Shown here piece by piece: positions 32,224 through 40,059 of a stretch of DNA of 64,000 nt (the stretch's first letter is position 1; the number at the start of each line of letters is the position of its first letter). The stretch is taken from positions 1-64,000 of the forward strand of contig DAIDJM010000022.1 in assembly GCA_027451405.1 (NCBI GenBank), in the 5' to 3' direction. The notes beneath the pieces are model-generated. The model did no database searches. It was not told where the DNA came from and worked only from the letters and a program-made list of their open reading frames with translations. This DNA is from Acetobacteraceae bacterium. GTDB lineage: Bacteria > Pseudomonadota > Alphaproteobacteria > Acetobacterales > Acetobacteraceae. Made by a program: the position numbers and the translations under genes.

Positions 32224-34302
32224 TCAGTCCGACGCGTTCGTGCCGATCTGCAGCTCCTTCACCAGCCGGTCCGCGTGATAGATCTTCTGGAGCGCCGCCT
32301 TGATCGCGCTCACATCGACCGCGACCGCCCGGTTCTGGGTGCCATCATACCCGAAATCGCCCCCGAGCGACTGGATGTTCCCGTCGAAGATCAATCCGGC
32401 TGCCTCGCCGGCCTGGTTGATCAGCGGCGAGCCTGAATTGCCGCCGATGATGTCGTTGGTGGTCGCGACATCGAGATGGGTCTGCAGATCGAGACTATCC
32501 TTCGCCTTATGCCAGCTCTCCGGCAGATTAAACGGATAAGCACCCGTCTCCCGCGCGAAAGCGCCGGCAAAATCGGTGAAGGGCGGGATGAATTTGCCGT
32601 TCTGCTCGTAGCCTTTCACGGTGCCGTAGGAGAGGCGCAGCGTGAAGGTGGCGTCCGGGTAGCTCGAGGTTCCCTGGAGCGCGAATTTCGCTTCCGCGAT
32701 CTTCGCCGCATTCTGCGTGATGACGGCTTTGACGTTGTTCTCGTAATCGGCGCGGACCGTGCGCGCGGGCCCGTCGAGCCGGCGCGCGAAGACCAGCATC
32801 GGGTCCTGCGACGCGTCGATGGCCGCTTTGCCGCCGGCGAGGAGAGCCTCGCGCACTTTCGGGTCCGCAAGCTTGGTGCCATCCACCGTTTGCTGCGCGA
32901 TTTCCTCGGGCGATTGCTTACCGAGGATCGCGTGCACGTCGGCATCGTCGGCGCCGAGATACTCGCGCATCTTGGTCAGCCACCAGCCCATTTGCGTCCG
33001 GTCGAGCTCGGGATAGACCGGCTCGGCCGAGAGCAGGTCGAGCTTCAAGGCCGGGAAATTGCTGTCCTGATATTCGTCGAGCCGCTGTCCGTTCGGCTTG
33101 CCCTGCTCGGCGGCGTAGCGGTTGAGTTCAATAGCCCAGCGCAACGTATTGGCGGCCAGCCGCCGCGAAAGCCCTTCGAGCAGCGCGTAGCGTTCGAAGA
33201 TCTGCGTCTCATGAGCCTCAGCACCGGCGATTGCCTTCCAGGCCCCGGCATCGGCCGCGAGCTTGGGATCGGCTTTCACCTTGAGTTCGAGCGCGCGGTC
33301 GGCGGCCTGATGCTGGGGAATGATCTGGCTCTCGACCAGCGCCTGCTGCCTGCCCTTGAAGGCCTTCAGCGAGTTCTCGATGAAAAACAGGTCAGTCTTC
33401 GAGAAGCGCTGCTCCTCCGGCCCTTTCGTGCCGAGTTCGTGCAGAATGCCCCGATCTTCCGAGAGCAGATCGATCAGGAAGGGCTGCGCATAATCGCGCT
33501 CGAAGATCAGCTGCGCGGCCGTGTCTTCGCGGTCGGTACGGCCCGGATTGCCGGAGGTGAAGGTAATGTCGCCGGCCTTCAGATCCTGCTTGGCGAAGCG
33601 AAGATAATTGTCGGTGTGGAGCGGCTTGCCGTGATCATAAATGCGCACGAAGGCCGCGTCGATTGCGTAGCGCGGGAAATTGAAATTGTCCGGATCGCCG
33701 CCGAAATTGGCCGCCTGGTCCTCAACCGCCCACACCAGCCGGAGATCTTGGTAGCGCCGGTATTTGTAGAGATCGTAGACGCCGCCATGGTAGAGCGTCA
33801 CCACCTGGCAGCGGATATCGGCAGCCGTGCCGCATTGCTTCTGCACGTCGGCGATCGCCGCGCGCTCGGCATCGGCGAAGGCGCGGCCTGATTTGTCCGC
33901 CGTCGACTGCTTGATCGTCTTCGTCACGTCGCTGATCGAAATCAGTTGGTTCGCCTCGAGCTCCGGACATGCCTTTTCGTCGGCCAGCGTAGGCGCATAG
34001 AACCCGTTCGCCACGTAATCATGCGCTTTGTCCGACAGCGCGCCGATACATTCGCGCGCGCAATGATGATTCGTCATCACGAGCCCGTCCGGCGAAATCA
34101 GGCTCGCCGAGCAGCCCTGCGCGAGCCGGATCGAGGACAGCCGCACATGGTCGAGCCAGGCCTGATCCGGCGCCCAATGATATGCCTCCAGCATGCGCTT
34201 GGCCGGGAAATGATCGAACGTCCACATGCCCTCGTCGGCAGCGGCGGGCAGAGCGAAACCGGCGCCGGCGAGCAAGAGCGCGGCGCGAGACAGAGCGTGC
34301 AT
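32224..34302 (-). CDS. Secreted S46-family dipeptidyl-peptidase (DPP7/DPP11 type)
   Basis: A 692-residue serine exopeptidase with a signal peptide (about 1-22, ending AAA). It has a chymotrypsin-like split fold: catalytic His in VMTNHHC (79-80) and nucleophile Ser623 in GGNSGSPLIN. The residue 18 positions after the Ser is Gly641; in P. gingivalis DPP11 the equivalent place holds the Arg that selects acidic P1 residues, so this protein is more like DPP7, which prefers bulky hydrophobic residues. It releases dipeptides from peptides outside the inner membrane. The ATG at 34302 follows GAGGAAGCG; an earlier start at 34341 is weak. A peptide ABC importer lies 20 kb away and could take up its products. 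Confidence 0.92.
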   Translation of the reverse strand: MHALSRAALLLAGAGFALPAAADEGMWTFDHFPAKRMLEAYHWAPDQAWLDHVRLSSIRLAQGCSASLISPDGLVMTNHHCARECIGALSDKAHDYVANGFYAPTLADEKACPELEANQLISISDVTKTIKQSTADKSGRAFADAERAAIADVQKQCGTAADIRCQVVTLYHGGVYDLYKYRRYQDLRLVWAVEDQAANFGGDPDNFNFPRYAIDAAFVRIYDHGKPLHTDNYLRFAKQDLKAGDITFTSGNPGRTDREDTAAQLIFERDYAQPFLIDLLSEDRGILHELGTKGPEEQRFSKTDLFFIENSLKAFKGRQQALVESQIIPQHQAADRALELKVKADPKLAADAGAWKAIAGAEAHETQIFERYALLEGLSRRLAANTLRWAIELNRYAAEQGKPNGQRLDEYQDSNFPALKLDLLSAEPVYPELDRTQMGWWLTKMREYLGADDADVHAILGKQSPEEIAQQTVDGTKLADPKVREALLAGGKAAIDASQDPMLVFARRLDGPARTVRADYENNVKAVITQNAAKIAEAKFALQGTSSYPDATFTLRLSYGTVKGYEQNGKFIPPFTDFAGAFARETGAYPFNLPESWHKAKDSLDLQTHLDVATTNDIIGGNSGSPLINQAGEAAGLIFDGNIQSLGGDFGYDGTQNRAVAVDVSAIKAALQKIYHADRLVKELQIGTNASD

Positions 34303-34373
34303 CGCTTCCTCGTGAAAAACTCGGGTGCGCGTGAGAAGCACGCCTGTCCGATACCGGCAAGGTGCGATGCCGC

Positions 34374-35789
34374 TTATCCGCCCCCGGCGAGGCGAAGCGC
34401 CGCCTGCAGATCCTCAACGAACGCCGCGTATTCCCGCGCCTTGGCGCTCTCGTCGGGCAGCCGCAGCAGATAGGATGGATGAACCGTAATGATTCCCCGC
34501 CCACCGGCGAGCGGCAGCGGGCGCCCGCGCTCACGCGAAATCGTGACCGCCCGGCCGAGCACCGCCCGCGCCGCGCTGGCCCCCAGCAGCACGGTGACGG
34601 CCGGCTGCACCAGCGCACGCTCGCGATCGAGCCAAGTGCGGCAGACCTCGATCTCCGCGCGATCGGGCGTGGCATGGATACGCCGCTTCCCGCGTGGCTC
34701 GAATTTGAAATGCTTGACCGCGTTCGTTACGTAGACGTGATTTCGGTCGATTCCCGCCTCGGTCAGGGCGCGGTCCAGCACCTGTCCGGCAGGACCGACG
34801 AAGGGCCGGCCGGCAAGATCCTCCTGATCTCCGGGCTGTTCACCCACCAGCATGAGACGCGCATCGCCGGGGCCCTCGCCGAACACGGTCTGCGTGGCTC
34901 GGGTCCAGAGCGGACAAAGCCGGCAGGAAGCGGCCTCGCGCGCCAGCGCGCCGAGTGCCCCCGGCACCGTTGGCGGCATCGGCGGCGCGGTGCGCCGGGT
35001 CGGACGGGGCGGAGAGAGCACCGGGGCCTCTATCATGCGGTCGGTTCTCGCCCGCGCGGCGCGGACGAGATCCGGAATCGCCTCGGCCTCCGGTAAGTTG
35101 CGCCAATATTTCTTCGGCATCTCGGAAAGCATGGCCGAGAGTTTCAGCCGCGCCGGGTTGAAGATCGCGCTGAAATAGGTGCGCCAGTATTCCGCCAACC
35201 GGTCGTCGTCCGGCACCTCGGCAGGCGATGCGCCTGGGCCAAGACGCAATGTCTCGCCATCCCAATGCGCGCTGCGGTACGGCGTCAGGATCGACCAGCG
35301 CATGGTCGCGAAACGCCGGACGAAAAAAGGGGCATTGGCCTCGACAATGAAATATTCGGGCTCGAACCACGCGACATGGCGCGTGCCCTCCGGTTCTTCT
35401 ACTTCGCGAAACCGCAGGAAAGCGCGCATCTTGTGGATGTCACGCCGGACATTGGCGGCCAAAAGCTGCACGCGCCGAACAAGAGGGTCGGCTGCGTCTT
35501 CCAGGATATGTTTCTCCCCACGAAAGGCTCGCCAGATCAGCGTGTAGAGCAGCGCGAAGCGCTCGGGGTCACGATGCAGGATCGCGGTCTCGGCCAGCGC
35601 CACCAGGCTGCGCGGCACGGAGAACGCTCCGGCCGGCATGTCGGGTTCGGCCGGTTCCGCAAACAGGTCCGTCGTCTCGCGCACTGACCAGACGGTCTGC
35701 TCCGGTGGCACGCTCCGCAGCGCCAGCGACCGGGCAGCCCGCCGCCAGCCCTCGAAATCGGCTTCGTGCGCGAGCGCAACCGCAATCAG
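34374..35789 (-). CDS. DUF4130-UdgX fusion: uracil-DNA-binding/glycosylase-like protein
   Basis: A 471-residue fusion. N-terminal about 250 residues match the DUF4130 'putative DNA metabolism' domain (DFEGWRRAARSLA start, PEYFIVEANAPFFVRRF). The C-terminal 205 residues are UdgX: CRLCPLW iron-sulfur Cys, GEQPGDQED, RPFVGPAGQVLDRAL, the diagnostic KRRIH loop (His372) and TVHPSYLLR. UdgX enzymes excise uracil and stay covalently bound to the abasic site through that His. Start choice matters: the conserved N-terminus requires reading from a CTG at 35789, which shares CTGA with the radical SAM stop; the first ATG/GTG/TTG is a GTG at 35711 and would cut off the conserved DFEGWRRA. Last gene of the six-gene run. 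Confidence 0.88.
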   Translation of the reverse strand: MIAVALAHEADFEGWRRAARSLALRSVPPEQTVWSVRETTDLFAEPAEPDMPAGAFSVPRSLVALAETAILHRDPERFALLYTLIWRAFRGEKHILEDAADPLVRRVQLLAANVRRDIHKMRAFLRFREVEEPEGTRHVAWFEPEYFIVEANAPFFVRRFATMRWSILTPYRSAHWDGETLRLGPGASPAEVPDDDRLAEYWRTYFSAIFNPARLKLSAMLSEMPKKYWRNLPEAEAIPDLVRAARARTDRMIEAPVLSPPRPTRRTAPPMPPTVPGALGALAREAASCRLCPLWTRATQTVFGEGPGDARLMLVGEQPGDQEDLAGRPFVGPAGQVLDRALTEAGIDRNHVYVTNAVKHFKFEPRGKRRIHATPDRAEIEVCRTWLDRERALVQPAVTVLLGASAARAVLGRAVTISRERGRPLPLAGGRGIITVHPSYLLRLPDESAKAREYAAFVEDLQAALRLAGGG

Positions 35790-36991
35790 AGTAAGGCCAG
35801 TTGTTCGGGTTCGAGCACGGGGGCACGGACACGGTCGAGCCCCGATCCCGGATGATGGTCTGCGGCGCAGACGAACGGCGCCAGTTTGGCGACTGGCAGG
35901 CGAAATCGCGCGAGATCATCGATCCGCAGCCGCCGGTGACGCCGGGCCGCGATCAACCGCGTCACGCTGCGCACGCCGAGTCCGGGCACGCGCAACAGCC
36001 GTTCGCGCGGTGCCGTGTTCAGGTCGACGGGAAACAGCCCGCGATTGGCCAGGGCCCAAGCGAGTTTCGGATCGTGCGTCAACGGCAGATTGCCGGAAGC
36101 CTCGAGCGGCAACTCGTCGAGGTCGAAGCCGTAGAAGCGCAACAGCCAATCGGCCTGGTAGAGCCGGTGCTCGCGTATGAGCGGCGCTGGCACTGGCGGC
36201 AGATGAGAAGCGGCGTCCGGTATGGGACTGAACGCGGAATAATAGACCCGTCGCAGCCCGTAGGCGCCGTAGAGGTTCGTGCTGAGGGAGAGGATCGTCT
36301 GGTCGGTGCTGGAATCGGCGCCGACGATCATTTGCGTGCTCTGGCCGGCGGGCGCGAAACGCGGCGCCCGGCGCTCGGCGCGCGCCTCGTCGATACGCAG
36401 CCGCATACGGCCCATGCTGCGACGGATGCCGCCAGCATCCTTTTCGGGCGCGAGAGCGGCAAGGCTGCGCTCGGTTGGAAGCTCGACATTGATGCTGAGC
36501 CGGTCCGCATATTTTCCGGCTTCGGCGAGCAGATCGGACGATGCATCCGGGATTGTCTTCAGATGGATATAACCGCGGAAGCCGTGTGTCTCACGCAACG
36601 AGCGGGCCACCGCGATCACCTGCTCCATGGTGTAATCGGGATTGCGGATGATCCCGGAACTCAGGAACAGCCCCTCGATGCAGTTCCGCCGGTAGAAGCC
36701 GAGCGTCAGGCTGACGATTTCCTCGACGCTGAAACGGGCGCGCGGCACGTTCGAGGAGCGTCGGTTGATGCAATAGGCGCAATCGTAGATGCAGGCATTG
36801 GTCAGCAGAATTTTCAGCAGCGATATGCAGCGTCCGTCCGGCGCATAGGCGTGGCAGATGCCCATGCCTTCGGTGCTGCCGACACCGCTCCCCGCACCCA
36901 GGGAATGCCGCCTCTCGGTCCCCGACGAGGCACAGGACGCGTCATATTTCGCCGCATCGGCCAGTATCTCGAGCTTGCGCAGGACATCCAT
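35786..36991 (-). CDS. Radical SAM protein of the putative DNA modification/repair family
   Basis: A 401-residue radical SAM protein. The cluster ligands are Cys67, Cys71 and Cys74 in CIYDCAYC, with LKILLTNA before and NRRSSNVPRARFSVEEIV after; the N-terminal KLEILADAAKYDASCASSG block is a hallmark of the family paired with DUF4130 proteins. A helix-hairpin-helix segment (about 328-370, TAPRERLLRVPGLGVRSVT) suggests DNA binding. Chemistry and substrate are unknown; repair or modification of a DNA lesion is the general expectation. ATG at 36991 is only 3 bases from the HAD stop, without a visible ribosome site, and its stop overlaps the UdgX CTG, so all three are probably coupled. Confidence 0.9.
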   Translation of the reverse strand: MDVLRKLEILADAAKYDASCASSGTERRHSLGAGSGVGSTEGMGICHAYAPDGRCISLLKILLTNACIYDCAYCINRRSSNVPRARFSVEEIVSLTLGFYRRNCIEGLFLSSGIIRNPDYTMEQVIAVARSLRETHGFRGYIHLKTIPDASSDLLAEAGKYADRLSINVELPTERSLAALAPEKDAGGIRRSMGRMRLRIDEARAERRAPRFAPAGQSTQMIVGADSSTDQTILSLSTNLYGAYGLRRVYYSAFSPIPDAASHLPPVPAPLIREHRLYQADWLLRFYGFDLDELPLEASGNLPLTHDPKLAWALANRGLFPVDLNTAPRERLLRVPGLGVRSVTRLIAARRHRRLRIDDLARFRLPVAKLAPFVCAADHHPGSGLDRVRAPVLEPEQLALL

Positions 36992-36994
36992 GGT

Positions 36995-38080
36995 TCATGC
37001 TATGTTCGCGAGCGGCGGCGTTTTGGCAAGTCCTGACTCGAGCAGAATCGGGGTGAGGAAGGACAAGAGGTTGCCTCCCGAGAAGAGGTGGCAGCGCATG
37101 CCGGCCGCCGCGGCCGCCGCCGCGTCACTCGCGCGGTCGCCCACCATGACGCAATGGCTCGGGTCGAGGCCCCAGCCCCGGATCAGATGCAGCAACATGC
37201 CCGGCCGCGGCTTCCGCCAGTCGCTATCACAGGCGTAAGCCGCAACCGGCGCGTCGGGCAGGTAGGGACACATGCGGATATCGTCGATCGTGCCGCCTGC
37301 GCGGCGGATTTCGTCGACCACCCATGCGTGCAACGCAGCTGCGTCCTGTTCGGTGTAGAAGCCCCGGGCGATGCCGGACTGATTGGTCACGATGAAAACA
37401 TGCCAGCCATGGTCGGTCGCGAACCGCACGGCCTCGCGCGCACCATCGACCCAGTCCCAGCGGTCGCGATGACCCACATAGGCATGATCGTGATTGAGCA
37501 CGCCATCGCGATCGAGAAAAAGCGCAGGGCGGCGCGCGATCGCCGCGCAATCGTGCGCGGCGGCCGATGCACCTGCGGGTTCGCGCAGATCCGCGAACCA
37601 GCCCGGCAGCACAGTGCCGGGCAGGTCGGGGCTGTCGAGCAACGCCGCCAGCGAGGCGGCATCCATGGCCCGTGAAAGGGCACGGGCATCGCAAGCGGCC
37701 AAGCCAGCGGAAGCCTCCGGAGCACCAGGCCGCAGGGCGCGGCGGCCAAGCTGGGCCGGCGGGTCGGCGGCGAACGCCGCGAGCAAGCGCGCCACATTCG
37801 CATCGAAAACCTGGCGTCCATCGACCAGGAGAAATCCGCCGCTCTCGGGCGGACCCGCGATTTCGGCAGAGGCCAGCTCGACCGCGGTGGGCAGTTCGTC
37901 CGCCTGATGCAACAACGCTTCCCAAATCTCCGGGTCGGGCTTGGGCCCGACCAGCGTGGCGCGGCGCACGCCGAATCGAATGAGTTCGCGAAGAATGAGA
38001 ATCGCGGGAAAAGCGGCGCCGATGGTGGGCACGGTGCCCCCAAGAATGAGCGCCTCCGGCAGGGTAGCCTGGCCGCGCAT
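36995..38080 (-). CDS. GmhB-like HAD phosphatase with degenerate nucleotidyltransferase-like N-terminus
   Basis: A 361-residue two-part protein. Residues about 185-340 are a HAD-IIIA phosphatase related to D,D-heptose 1,7-bisphosphate phosphatase: nucleophile and acid Asp190/Asp192 in FLDRDGVLN, VTNQSGIARGFYTE, CPYLPDAP and KPRPGMLLH. Residues 1-165 align by pattern with NDP-sugar pyrophosphorylases (PEALILGG), but the G-x-G-T-R-L loop is lost (reads GGTVPTIGAAFP) and the PKP motif is absent, so that half should be inactive. Fusions of these domains are known in heptose activation. ATG at 38080 overlaps the mccA TGA by one base. A heptose function does not fit a leucine operon, so a housekeeping phosphatase or repair-linked role is also possible. 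Confidence 0.8.
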   Translation of the reverse strand: MRGQATLPEALILGGTVPTIGAAFPAILILRELIRFGVRRATLVGPKPDPEIWEALLHQADELPTAVELASAEIAGPPESGGFLLVDGRQVFDANVARLLAAFAADPPAQLGRRALRPGAPEASAGLAACDARALSRAMDAASLAALLDSPDLPGTVLPGWFADLREPAGASAAAHDCAAIARRPALFLDRDGVLNHDHAYVGHRDRWDWVDGAREAVRFATDHGWHVFIVTNQSGIARGFYTEQDAAALHAWVVDEIRRAGGTIDDIRMCPYLPDAPVAAYACDSDWRKPRPGMLLHLIRGWGLDPSHCVMVGDRASDAAAAAAAGMRCHLFSGGNLLSFLTPILLESGLAKTPPLANIA

Positions 38081-40059
38081 CAATCCGCCTCGGCGAAACG
38101 GACCAGATCGGTGCCTTCCTCGACCATATCGCCGAGCCTGGGCCGGATTTCCGCAACGATACCGTCAAGCGGCGCCGTGAGGGTGAGCTCCATTTTCATG
38201 GCCTCCAGAATGAGCAGCGGCGCGCCTTTCTCTACCTTCTCGCCCGCGACCGCCAGGATGCGGGTAACGCGCGCGGGGATGGGCGCGGTCACACGTAAGG
38301 CGGCGGCCGTCTCCGCCGCTTGTGGGGCCAGCGGATCGTGATGGCGGAACAGGTGATTGGCGCCGTCGAGAACGACAACGATTTCCTCGCCGGCACGCAC
38401 CAGCGTGACGGGCCGCGATACGCCATCGAGTTGGATCCGCCGCCGGCCATCCTGTTCCGGCGCGAGAATGGCCAGCCCCGCCCCGTCCGGAAGTTCGAGA
38501 CGGGTGGCTGGCTCTCCATGCCATGCGCGGATCGCGACCGGATCGCCCTCTTTTGGTGCCAGCCAGACATCCTGATGGCCGGAACCGTTCAACCGCCACG
38601 AATCGCGCATCGTCCAGGGCGAAAAGGGATCGCCCGGATGGGCCGGCGCCGGATCGTCCAGGCAAAGCAAGACAGCGGCGGCCCAGGCCTCGCGCGGCGG
38701 CGGTGCGGCCGGCGCCTGCAACGCCGTGCCATGACGAGAAATGAAACCGGTATCGACCGATCCTGCTGAAAAATCCGGATGGTCGGCAATCGCCCTCAGC
38801 AGCGGCAGATTCGTCTCGATTCCGACCAGTTCCGTCTCCGACAAAGCCGACCGTAACCGACCCAGCGCGATCTCGCGATTGTCTCCATGCACGATCAGCT
38901 TCGCCAGCATCGGATCATAGAAGGGCGTGACTTGCGAGCCGCTACGCACGCCGGCATCGATCCGCACCCGGCCGGCCTGCTGCGGGGGAAAGCGCAAATG
39001 GCGTATCTCTCCTGTGGCCGGCAGGAAATCGCGCGACGGATCTTCCGCGTAAAGCCGCACTTCGATGGCGTGTCCCGTGGGCGCGCGCGGTGCGGGCGGC
39101 AGCTTTTCCCCGGCCGCAACGCGCAATTGCCACTCGACCAGATCGAGCCCGGTCACCATTTCGGTCACCGGGTGCTCCACCTGCAAACGAGTGTTCATTT
39201 CCATGAAATAAAATTTGTCGTCCTCGGCGATGAACTCCACCGTTCCGGCGCCAACATAGCCGGCGGCGCGCGCCGCAGCGATCGCAGCCTCGCCCATAGC
39301 CTGCCGCCGTGCCTCGGAAAGCCCCGGTGCCGGCGCCTCCTCGACGACCTTCTGATGCCGGCGCTGGATCGAACAATCCCGCTCGAACAGGGAAACCGTG
39401 TTGCCGTGCGTGTCCGCGAATATCTGGATTTCGATATGCCGTGGCCGAGTCAAGTATTTCTCGATCAGCAGGCGCGCATCGCCGAACGAGGCGGCGGCCT
39501 CCCGGGCTGCGCTCTCGAGCGCGGGACCGAGTGCGGCTTCGCGCTCGACGATCCGCATCCCCTTCCCGCCCCCACCCGCGCTGGCCTTGATCAGCACCGG
39601 ATAGCCGACCTCCGCGGCCGCCTTCGTCAGCGTGGCGAGATCCTGGTCGCTGCCGTAAAAACCCGGAACGACCGGGACGCCCGCGCGCGCCATCAGAGCC
39701 TTCGCGGCGGCTTTCGAGCCCATGGCCCGGATCGCCTCGGGCGGGGGCCCCACGAATACGAGCCCGGCCTCGAGACAGGCTTCCGCGAAATCGGCGTTTT
39801 CTGAGAGGAACCCGTAACCGGGATGGATCGCGTGCGCGCCGGCACGGCGTGCCGCCTCGAGGATGGCGTCGATATCGAGATAGCTCTGTCGTGCCGGCGG
39901 CGGCCCGATCCGGAGCGCCATATCGGCCTGCGCGACATGCGGCGCCTCCGCGTCGGCATCGGAATAGACCGTGATCGTGCGAATGCCGAGCCGGCGCCCC
40001 GTGCGCACAATGCGGCAGGCAATCTCGCCCCGATTGGCGATCAGGAGTGAGGCGAACAT
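38080..40059 (-). CDS. mccA: Methylcrotonyl-CoA carboxylase biotin-carrying alpha subunit
   Basis: A 659-residue biotin carboxylase plus carrier. Biotin carboxylase domain (about 1-445): LLIANRGEIACRI, the ATP-grasp KASAGGGGKGMR, ERDCSIQRRHQKV and MEMNTRLQVEHPVTE. A middle domain follows, then the biotinyl domain (about 590-657) with the biotin acceptor Lys622 in LEAMKMELT. Similar subunits serve acetyl-, propionyl- and methylcrotonyl-CoA carboxylases; position next to mccB and ivd decides for methylcrotonyl-CoA, the fourth leucine-breakdown step. It begins 7 bases after the mccB stop and overlaps the HAD gene. Confidence 0.94.
   Translation of the reverse strand: MFASLLIANRGEIACRIVRTGRRLGIRTITVYSDADAEAPHVAQADMALRIGPPPARQSYLDIDAILEAARRAGAHAIHPGYGFLSENADFAEACLEAGLVFVGPPPEAIRAMGSKAAAKALMARAGVPVVPGFYGSDQDLATLTKAAAEVGYPVLIKASAGGGGKGMRIVEREAALGPALESAAREAAASFGDARLLIEKYLTRPRHIEIQIFADTHGNTVSLFERDCSIQRRHQKVVEEAPAPGLSEARRQAMGEAAIAAARAAGYVGAGTVEFIAEDDKFYFMEMNTRLQVEHPVTEMVTGLDLVEWQLRVAAGEKLPPAPRAPTGHAIEVRLYAEDPSRDFLPATGEIRHLRFPPQQAGRVRIDAGVRSGSQVTPFYDPMLAKLIVHGDNREIALGRLRSALSETELVGIETNLPLLRAIADHPDFSAGSVDTGFISRHGTALQAPAAPPPREAWAAAVLLCLDDPAPAHPGDPFSPWTMRDSWRLNGSGHQDVWLAPKEGDPVAIRAWHGEPATRLELPDGAGLAILAPEQDGRRRIQLDGVSRPVTLVRAGEEIVVVLDGANHLFRHHDPLAPQAAETAAALRVTAPIPARVTRILAVAGEKVEKGAPLLILEAMKMELTLTAPLDGIVAEIRPRLGDMVEEGTDLVRFAEAD

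Follow-up and report, generated by a model that had tools for sequence, protein, structure and literature searches.

What task joins a radical S-adenosylmethionine (SAM) protein, a DUF4130 domain and a UdgX-type uracil-DNA glycosylase in two overlapping genes? The question is raised by an operon on the reverse strand of contig DAIDJM010000022.1 of an Acetobacteraceae bacterium (assembly GCA_027451405.1), of which positions 1 to 64,000, a stretch of 64,000 nucleotides referred to below as the window, were analysed. The kind of unit is known, because NCBIfam already names the radical SAM/DUF4130/UdgX set and links between its genes have been published. In PMC3765255 the radical SAM, DUF4130 and UDG genes are linked, and a figure legend there floats a modification of thymine by the DUF4130/SplB-like/UDG set. 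A passage of PMC8565304 places the two-gene operon COG1573-COG4277 in the SOS network of Bacteroidetes and refers to reports for Verrucomicrobia and Alphaproteobacteria. According to an excerpt of PMC13130816, a gene annotated as a member of the TIGR03916-type radical SAM family goes up together with recA under severe desiccation in Acinetobacter. Full-text literature searches on these family names brought up few papers and no tested reaction for the radical SAM protein or DUF4130; to this extent a preliminary description of the locus was right to call it a two-gene unit of no settled function, although the unit itself had already been named in three NCBIfam models and earlier papers. It is a well-delimited repair unit, unusual in its start codon. 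We favour the view that it constitutes an SOS-inducible two-gene DNA-damage unit with a radical SAM-DUF4130 core and UdgX as its anchor, and would give this model as a whole a probability of about 0.45. New in the present analysis are a LexA-type box, the co-occurrence of the core, a rule that ties the DUF4130 tail to the radical SAM partner, three extra cysteines, and a weak likeness of the DUF4130 model to DHH folds.

Both genes lie in the positions and reading frames originally assigned to them. The radical SAM gene (35786..36991, minus strand; 401 amino acids, ATG start, TGA stop at 35788-35786) scores 538.9 bits against TIGR03916 (rSAM_link_UDG), for which the curated NCBIfam cut-off is 343.5. 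The second frame, ending at 34374, encodes the DUF4130-UdgX fusion (34374..35789, minus strand), which has 471 amino acids if read from CTG 35789, in a CTGA overlap with the radical SAM stop. The proposed domain order, DUF4130 followed by UdgX next to the radical SAM protein, was borne out by all models: the DUF4130 part reaches 214.7 bits against TIGR03915 (curated cut-off 112.25) and 132 bits against Pfam DUF4130 (PF13566; residues 75-234; cut-off 27 bits), and the UdgX part reaches 317.9 bits against TIGR03914 (curated cut-off 189.95) and 115 bits, above the Pfam cut-off, against Pfam UDG (residues 303-462). Residues of the fusion are numbered from CTG 35789, so that the segment DFEGWRRA starts at residue 11 and GTG 35711 is residue 27. 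The locus had no match in an anti-phage library and only weak matches to phage families, and an Rfam scan of 34000-38500 gave no match.

The composition of the core emerges from a survey of 120 Pseudomonadota genomes, the own genome included. TIGR03916 and TIGR03915 exceeded their cut-offs in the same 19 genomes, on the same contig and strand and within ~0.7 kb of each other. UdgX exceeded its cut-off in 17 genomes, 14 of them among these 19, and was found without the radical SAM gene in three of the 120, all belonging to one genus. Because the first two families share their 19 genomes and UdgX is not over its cut-off in some of these, we regard radical SAM and DUF4130 as the core and UdgX as an add-on. 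The co-occurrence that the preliminary description proposed to look for thus exists for the former two, whereas UdgX follows in just 14 of 19; its two-gene unit is better described as a core with a detachable UdgX, and the LexA-type box, the extra cysteines and the DUF4130 tail had no place in it. Consistently, DUF4130 follows the radical SAM gene on its strand at 96 of 99 loci; at the other three, the sequence runs on for just 114-771 bases beyond that gene. In one genome of the UdgX-only genus (G141) a full-scoring UdgX lies beside what is left of the DUF4130 tail, a below-cut-off match interrupted by a TGA; this is a decayed fusion. Plasmids carry matches to the fusion protein as well: at a threshold of E 1e-30, 394 of 72,556 records match, and in 144 the match covers 80% or more of the protein. 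Rhizobium, Sinorhizobium, and Phaeobacter head the list.

Upstream of the core, an exact LexA-type direct repeat GTTC-N7-GTTC (GAAC-N7-GAAC on the minus strand) occupies 36993..37007, one base before the radical SAM ATG. This is the LexA operator motif of Alphaproteobacteria as given in a passage of PMC8565304. Since about one chance match to GTTCN7GTTC is expected in 64 kb (mean 1.4 in shuffles), it is the position and conservation of the box that matter. A search of 98 loci between 120 bp before the radical SAM gene and 12 bp into it recovered an exact box at 65 (window included) and a box with one mismatch at eight more; the reversed pattern gave no exact match at any of the 98 loci and 20 with one mismatch, and shuffles gave 7 in 1960. 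Elsewhere in the own genome, an exact box stands before a gene with a sub-threshold likeness to ImuA (55 bits; model cut-off 150), two one-mismatch boxes lie just upstream of lexA, and one lies ~140 bp upstream of recA. We do not take the genome-wide excess of exact boxes (82 against 43 for the reversed pattern) as evidence, because a repeated gene family carrying the box contributes to it. Ten selected open reading frames (ORFs) next to own-genome boxes comprised two of SOS-like character, the below-cut-off ImuA-like one and a Peptidase_S24 protein, besides one helix-turn-helix regulator, one secretin, and six without a family in Pfam or NCBIfam. On the strength of the conserved box, the operon is probably switched on by DNA damage via LexA.

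Two further observations concern the box. Related ORFs of ~200 amino acids in the own genome (L183-L186, L188, L191, L194, and L200; ~73-95% identity in longer stretches) have an exact GTTC-N7-GTTC at their 5' end or close to it, and L185, the sole one scanned on that strand, had no match in Pfam or NCBIfam; these copies may represent a repeated element with a LexA-type box of its own. In a contig from a viral collection (L142, IMGVR_UViG_3300006947_003566), which may be a mis-sorted bacterial one, an exact LexA-type box begins 26 bp before the radical SAM gene.

The DUF4130 part falls into two sections, a core (residues 1-195; 35205..35789, minus strand) and a tail (residues 196-245; 35055..35204, minus strand; NPARLK..AM..EMP..YW.NLPEA), the latter being kept beside the radical SAM gene. 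All 18 DUF4130 copies with a nearby radical SAM gene match the profile to its end at residue 245, including L018, where the partner is ~1.1 kb away, and all eight copies that are not beside such a gene end between residues 114 and 222. Four of these eight belong to genomes without the family's radical SAM gene (completeness 86-99%); the genomes of the other four do have one at another site, next to a different DUF4130 copy. Since a set of 71 DUF4130 sequences had been preselected for reaching residue 225 and was unfit to test the tail, all 81 loci were re-run without preselection; 78 had a DUF4130 match, of which 76 reach profile position 240 or beyond, and at L064 DUF4130 is cut by the contig end. 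On the UdgX-domain tree (34 copies) the tail label requires three changes (2-4 in bootstraps), and as no bootstrap tree (0%) needs just one, the tail state changed at least twice. In its simplest reading, this association would make residues 196-245 the docking site of the radical SAM protein.

The eight tail-less copies are DUF4130-UdgX fusions away from a radical SAM gene (L020, L021, L023, L024, L025, L173, L174, and L175), and no common DNA-repair partner appeared among 10 neighbours at seven of the eight loci, which comprised a sugar transferase, GST, glutamate synthase, MurJ, FUSC (at two loci), a TPP enzyme, a cation efflux protein, and two without a match. Distant DUF4130 matches (22-26% identity) occur in records deposited as Bacteroides or Acinetobacter phages (PQ571268.1, CAKLQH020000003.1, and CAKLQF020000004.1).

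The radical SAM protein has the CxxxCxxC motif noted before (C67, C71, and C74; 36770..36793, minus strand), the ligands of the radical SAM cluster, which is invariant in 50 of 50 aligned sequences, window included. Equally invariant (50/50) are C20, C46, and C55 together with H47 (36827..36934, minus strand). These cysteines are candidate ligands of an N-terminal auxiliary Fe-S cluster, which we infer from their conservation and from the model: its mean predicted local distance difference test (pLDDT) value is 84.9, but residues 20-45 fall below 50, which could be because the cluster that would order them is missing from the model. A helix-hairpin-helix (HhH) segment, described earlier as DNA-binding, corresponds to residues 322-351 (35939..36028, minus strand); many of its residues are conserved, but the Pfam match is sub-threshold (17.4 bits against a cut-off of 27), and a contact with DNA is putative. 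In the fusion protein, the UdgX domain (residues 237-463; 34401..35081, minus strand) aligned over its full length to solved UdgX, to which it scores 191 bits (PDB 6ajo). GEQPG (motif A), TNAVKHFKF, and the KRRIH R-loop (34674..34688, minus strand; R107/H109 equivalents) are intact, and motif B, here HPSYLLR, matches the published HPS(S/A)(L/V)(L/V)R except at the fourth position, where Tyr replaces Ser/Ala. The histidine of the KRRIH loop is residue 372, as had been proposed. From the motif definitions and the covalent His mechanism given for MsmUdgX in sections of PMC10359453, His372 is likely to cross-link to uracil sites.

How the fusion gene is translated is less straightforward, as the first in-frame ATG, GTG, or TTG of its frame is GTG 35711. 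A start at this codon was rejected: it would cut off strand 1 of the model (residues 2-6) and R16, A19, and R20, which are shared by at least 90% of 64 homologues, and translation should therefore begin upstream of it. Closest to hand is CTG (35787..35789, minus strand), which aligns exactly with the GTG and TTG of GTGA and TTGA overlaps in the closest relatives (L003 and L004, respectively); L005 has ATGA one codon before the CTG in the alignment, and in L006 and L007 an ATG aligned with the CTG lies 3' of the radical SAM stop. The alternative is ATT (35784..35786, minus strand), which takes the position held by ATG in CTGATG junctions. Among 96 junctions with DUF4130 downstream (the window counted as L002, and with at least two duplicate-record pairs, L004/L062 and L019/L063), 27 have ATG, GTG, or TTG in an NTGA stop overlap, 23 have ATG two bases on (+2), 42 start elsewhere, and four (the window, L106, L079, and L107) have no start in the range tried. 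The preliminary description had argued from geometry, likening CTGA to nearby ATGA, GTGA, and TTGA junctions. This argument fails, since CTGA alone is not above chance: among the NTGA overlaps found mechanically between the window's long open frames it makes up 17 of 44; at homologous junctions CTGA is read in 38 of 96 (window included), 21 of the 38 being CTGATG with ATG at +2. The case for CTG hence rests on homology. What survives of the original claim is that translation begins at the radical SAM stop or next to it, a point well supported by conservation and the model, with CTG 35789 more likely than the adjacent ATT 35786.

Alternatively, the apparent CTG might be a draft-genome error or a lesion of this single strain, the true gene having ATG, GTG, or TTG at this place or being poorly expressed. 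CTG starts are indeed very rare, CUG accounting for 0.024% of bacterial starts and giving 0.86% of AUG output (as cited in a passage of PMC11497404; a literature search aimed at bacterial CTG start codons gave no match). Furthermore, the -1 overlaps with a regular start codon and the +2 ATGs make up 27 and 23 of the homologous junctions, respectively, and the assembly is a 67-contig draft (97.66% complete). On the other hand, the reading frame is uninterrupted and conserved both before and after the apparent start, with no second genome of the genus among 60 searched. We consider such an error or lesion less likely than not, yet a more serious contender than any of the alternatives discussed below. 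As a side note, the gene upstream of the operon (36995-38083, minus strand), which looks by eye like a HAD-type phosphatase, has its first possible start at a TTG, in a TTGA overlap with the preceding gene (38080-38083).

Taken as a working model, these features might combine as follows. DNA damage would cause LexA to leave the box before the radical SAM gene, allowing transcription of one mRNA, from which DUF4130-UdgX would be made by termination-reinitiation at the radical SAM stop, starting at CTG 35789 or, less likely, at ATT 35786. The radical SAM protein and DUF4130 would form the working core, with the DUF4130 tail docking the radical SAM enzyme and the HhH end of the latter holding DNA. 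The enzyme's 5'-deoxyadenosyl radical, perhaps together with a second, N-terminal Fe-S cluster, could then act on a damaged base or sugar. UdgX would excise uracil and cap the abasic site covalently via His372, thereby anchoring the complex at the damaged strand and shielding the site.

Several results speak against this model. UdgX did not exceed its cut-off in five of the 19 core genomes, and the UdgX step is accordingly not general. At 15 loci UdgX lies outside the DUF4130 frame. The genomes of 13 of them were searched, the other two (L064 and L107) being truncated within the gene: ten of these genomes with an unfused DUF4130 had no UdgX over cut-off and three had one, the absence being weak evidence as completeness was not given. 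The exact GTTC/GAAC-type box is missing at 33 of the 98 loci, eight of which have it with one mismatch; among the 33 are the near relatives L003, L004, and L005 as well as loci with a beta- or gammaproteobacterium in the title, for example Xanthomonas, Rhodanobacter, Variovorax, and Comamonas. At L072, beside a radical SAM gene and with no UdgX in the locus, DUF4130 ends at profile position 221, which either departs from the tail rule or stems from a broken frame in a metagenome assembly. Given the rarity of CUG starts and their output of less than 1% of AUG, the CTG would imply either little protein or a sequence error. No biochemistry for the radical SAM or DUF4130 proteins was found in the literature searched. 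Finally, the likeness of DUF4130 to DHH proteins lies at background level, as the best Z of 7-8 is typical in the absence of a true relative and the rows are not independent, and no DHH match was obtained by sequence in the Pfam scan (64 members, up to E 10) or the PDB profile search.

This likeness is nevertheless a lead. The model of residues 1-245 is of high predicted quality (pLDDT 93.1, predicted template modelling score 0.88), and most of the 50 VIA-align rows listed are members of what we take, from the entry titles, to be the DHH superfamily; Cdc45 and family II pyrophosphatases also ranked, with matches covering residues 1-195 or part of them. The best Foldseek match was a PAP phosphatase at E 0.07. 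A profile-profile comparison of DUF4130 with 15 RecJ-type sequences yielded no match, nor did one with the radical SAM profile, and residues 1-245 of the fusion lack the DHH catalytic motif and triad. One could speculate that DUF4130 is a reduced DHH/DHHA1-type (RecJ/Cdc45-like) scaffold without nuclease motif that holds damaged single-stranded DNA, with its tail as the docking point for a two-cluster radical SAM enzyme and UdgX as covalent anchor. The whole would form an SOS-induced machine for radical repair that stays tied to the abasic site during its work, its second subunit being throttled in this genome by the CTG start. We regard this more elaborate picture as improbable.

A different division of labor would have the radical SAM-DUF4130 pair feed UdgX, by making uracil, or an abasic precursor, from a pyrimidine that is damaged or modified, for UdgX to remove and capture. 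The tight linkage and the fusion of the genes would suit such a sequence of steps, as would the thymine modification considered in the legend of PMC3765255. However, the core occurs without UdgX over cut-off in the five genomes mentioned above, and UdgX occurs without the radical SAM gene in three of the 120 genomes and in the tail-less fusions; as the core occurs without UdgX and vice versa, neither step needs the other, and substrate feeding appears to be an outside chance of about the same rank as the DHH scaffold. Still less probable is a role in release, in which UdgX caps abasic sites and the resulting His-C1' bond between protein and DNA is afterwards removed or processed by radical SAM-DUF4130. 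Such suicidal capture calls for a way to undo it, and all parts lie in a single unit, but the M. smegmatis UdgX works alone in vitro (parts of PMC10359453; solved chains of 205-229 residues) and ten of the 13 genomes with an unfused DUF4130 have no UdgX over cut-off. That UdgX is here a passive glycosylase fossil and the LexA-type box a product of chance, as the roughly one match per 64 kb (mean 1.4) and the partly repeat-derived own-genome excess (82 against 43) might suggest, is very improbable in view of the intact UdgX signature residues and the exact box at 65 of 98 loci against none for the reversed pattern.

The pair is present in 19 of 120 sampled Pseudomonadota genomes, the own one included, with no reaction assigned to it in the literature searched. 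Three handles on its function are now available in the link between tail and partner, the additional cysteines, and the LexA-type box. Should the radical SAM-DUF4130 core prove to act on DNA, it would join spore photoproduct lyase, the only radical enzyme of DNA repair known to us. The start codon, in turn, would offer a clean case for natural CTG initiation by termination-reinitiation.

Compared with known systems, the operon is closest to the NCBIfam set TIGR03916/TIGR03915/TIGR03914 (COG4277-COG1573 operon), with which it shares three models over their cut-offs and the gene order and strand of its relatives; unlike in this set, the second gene has no ATG, GTG, or TTG at the junction. The PF13566 model spans only residues 75-234, whereas the conserved unit here extends from residue 1 to ~245. 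By fold, the predicted DHH/DHHA1-like core of DUF4130 (VIA-align rows span residues 1-195) aligned with PAP phosphatase (8a8k; Z 8.2, 177 residues, root-mean-square deviation (rmsd) 4.7) and RecJ (5f56; Z 7.6, 176 residues, rmsd 4.0), values that have to be read against the background mentioned above. The radical SAM protein had no match in PDB sequence searches; among the 50 fold rows listed for its model, lipoyl synthase was nearest (4u0o; VIA-align Z 18.0, 229 residues, rmsd 3.3), HydE was also near (7o1o; Z 17.3, 216 residues, rmsd 2.6), and spore photoproduct lyase was not present, although such a listing excludes nothing. Identities to lipoyl synthase, HydE, and biotin synthase are 6-17% in these rows, most of which end at about residue 286, before the HhH part. 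The Mycobacterium smegmatis UdgX (PDB 6ail, 8iie, and others) is similar over the whole glycosylase domain (~190 bits), with GEQPG, KRRIH, and HPS...R aligned, but its solved chains consist of UdgX alone, whereas here UdgX follows behind DUF4130.

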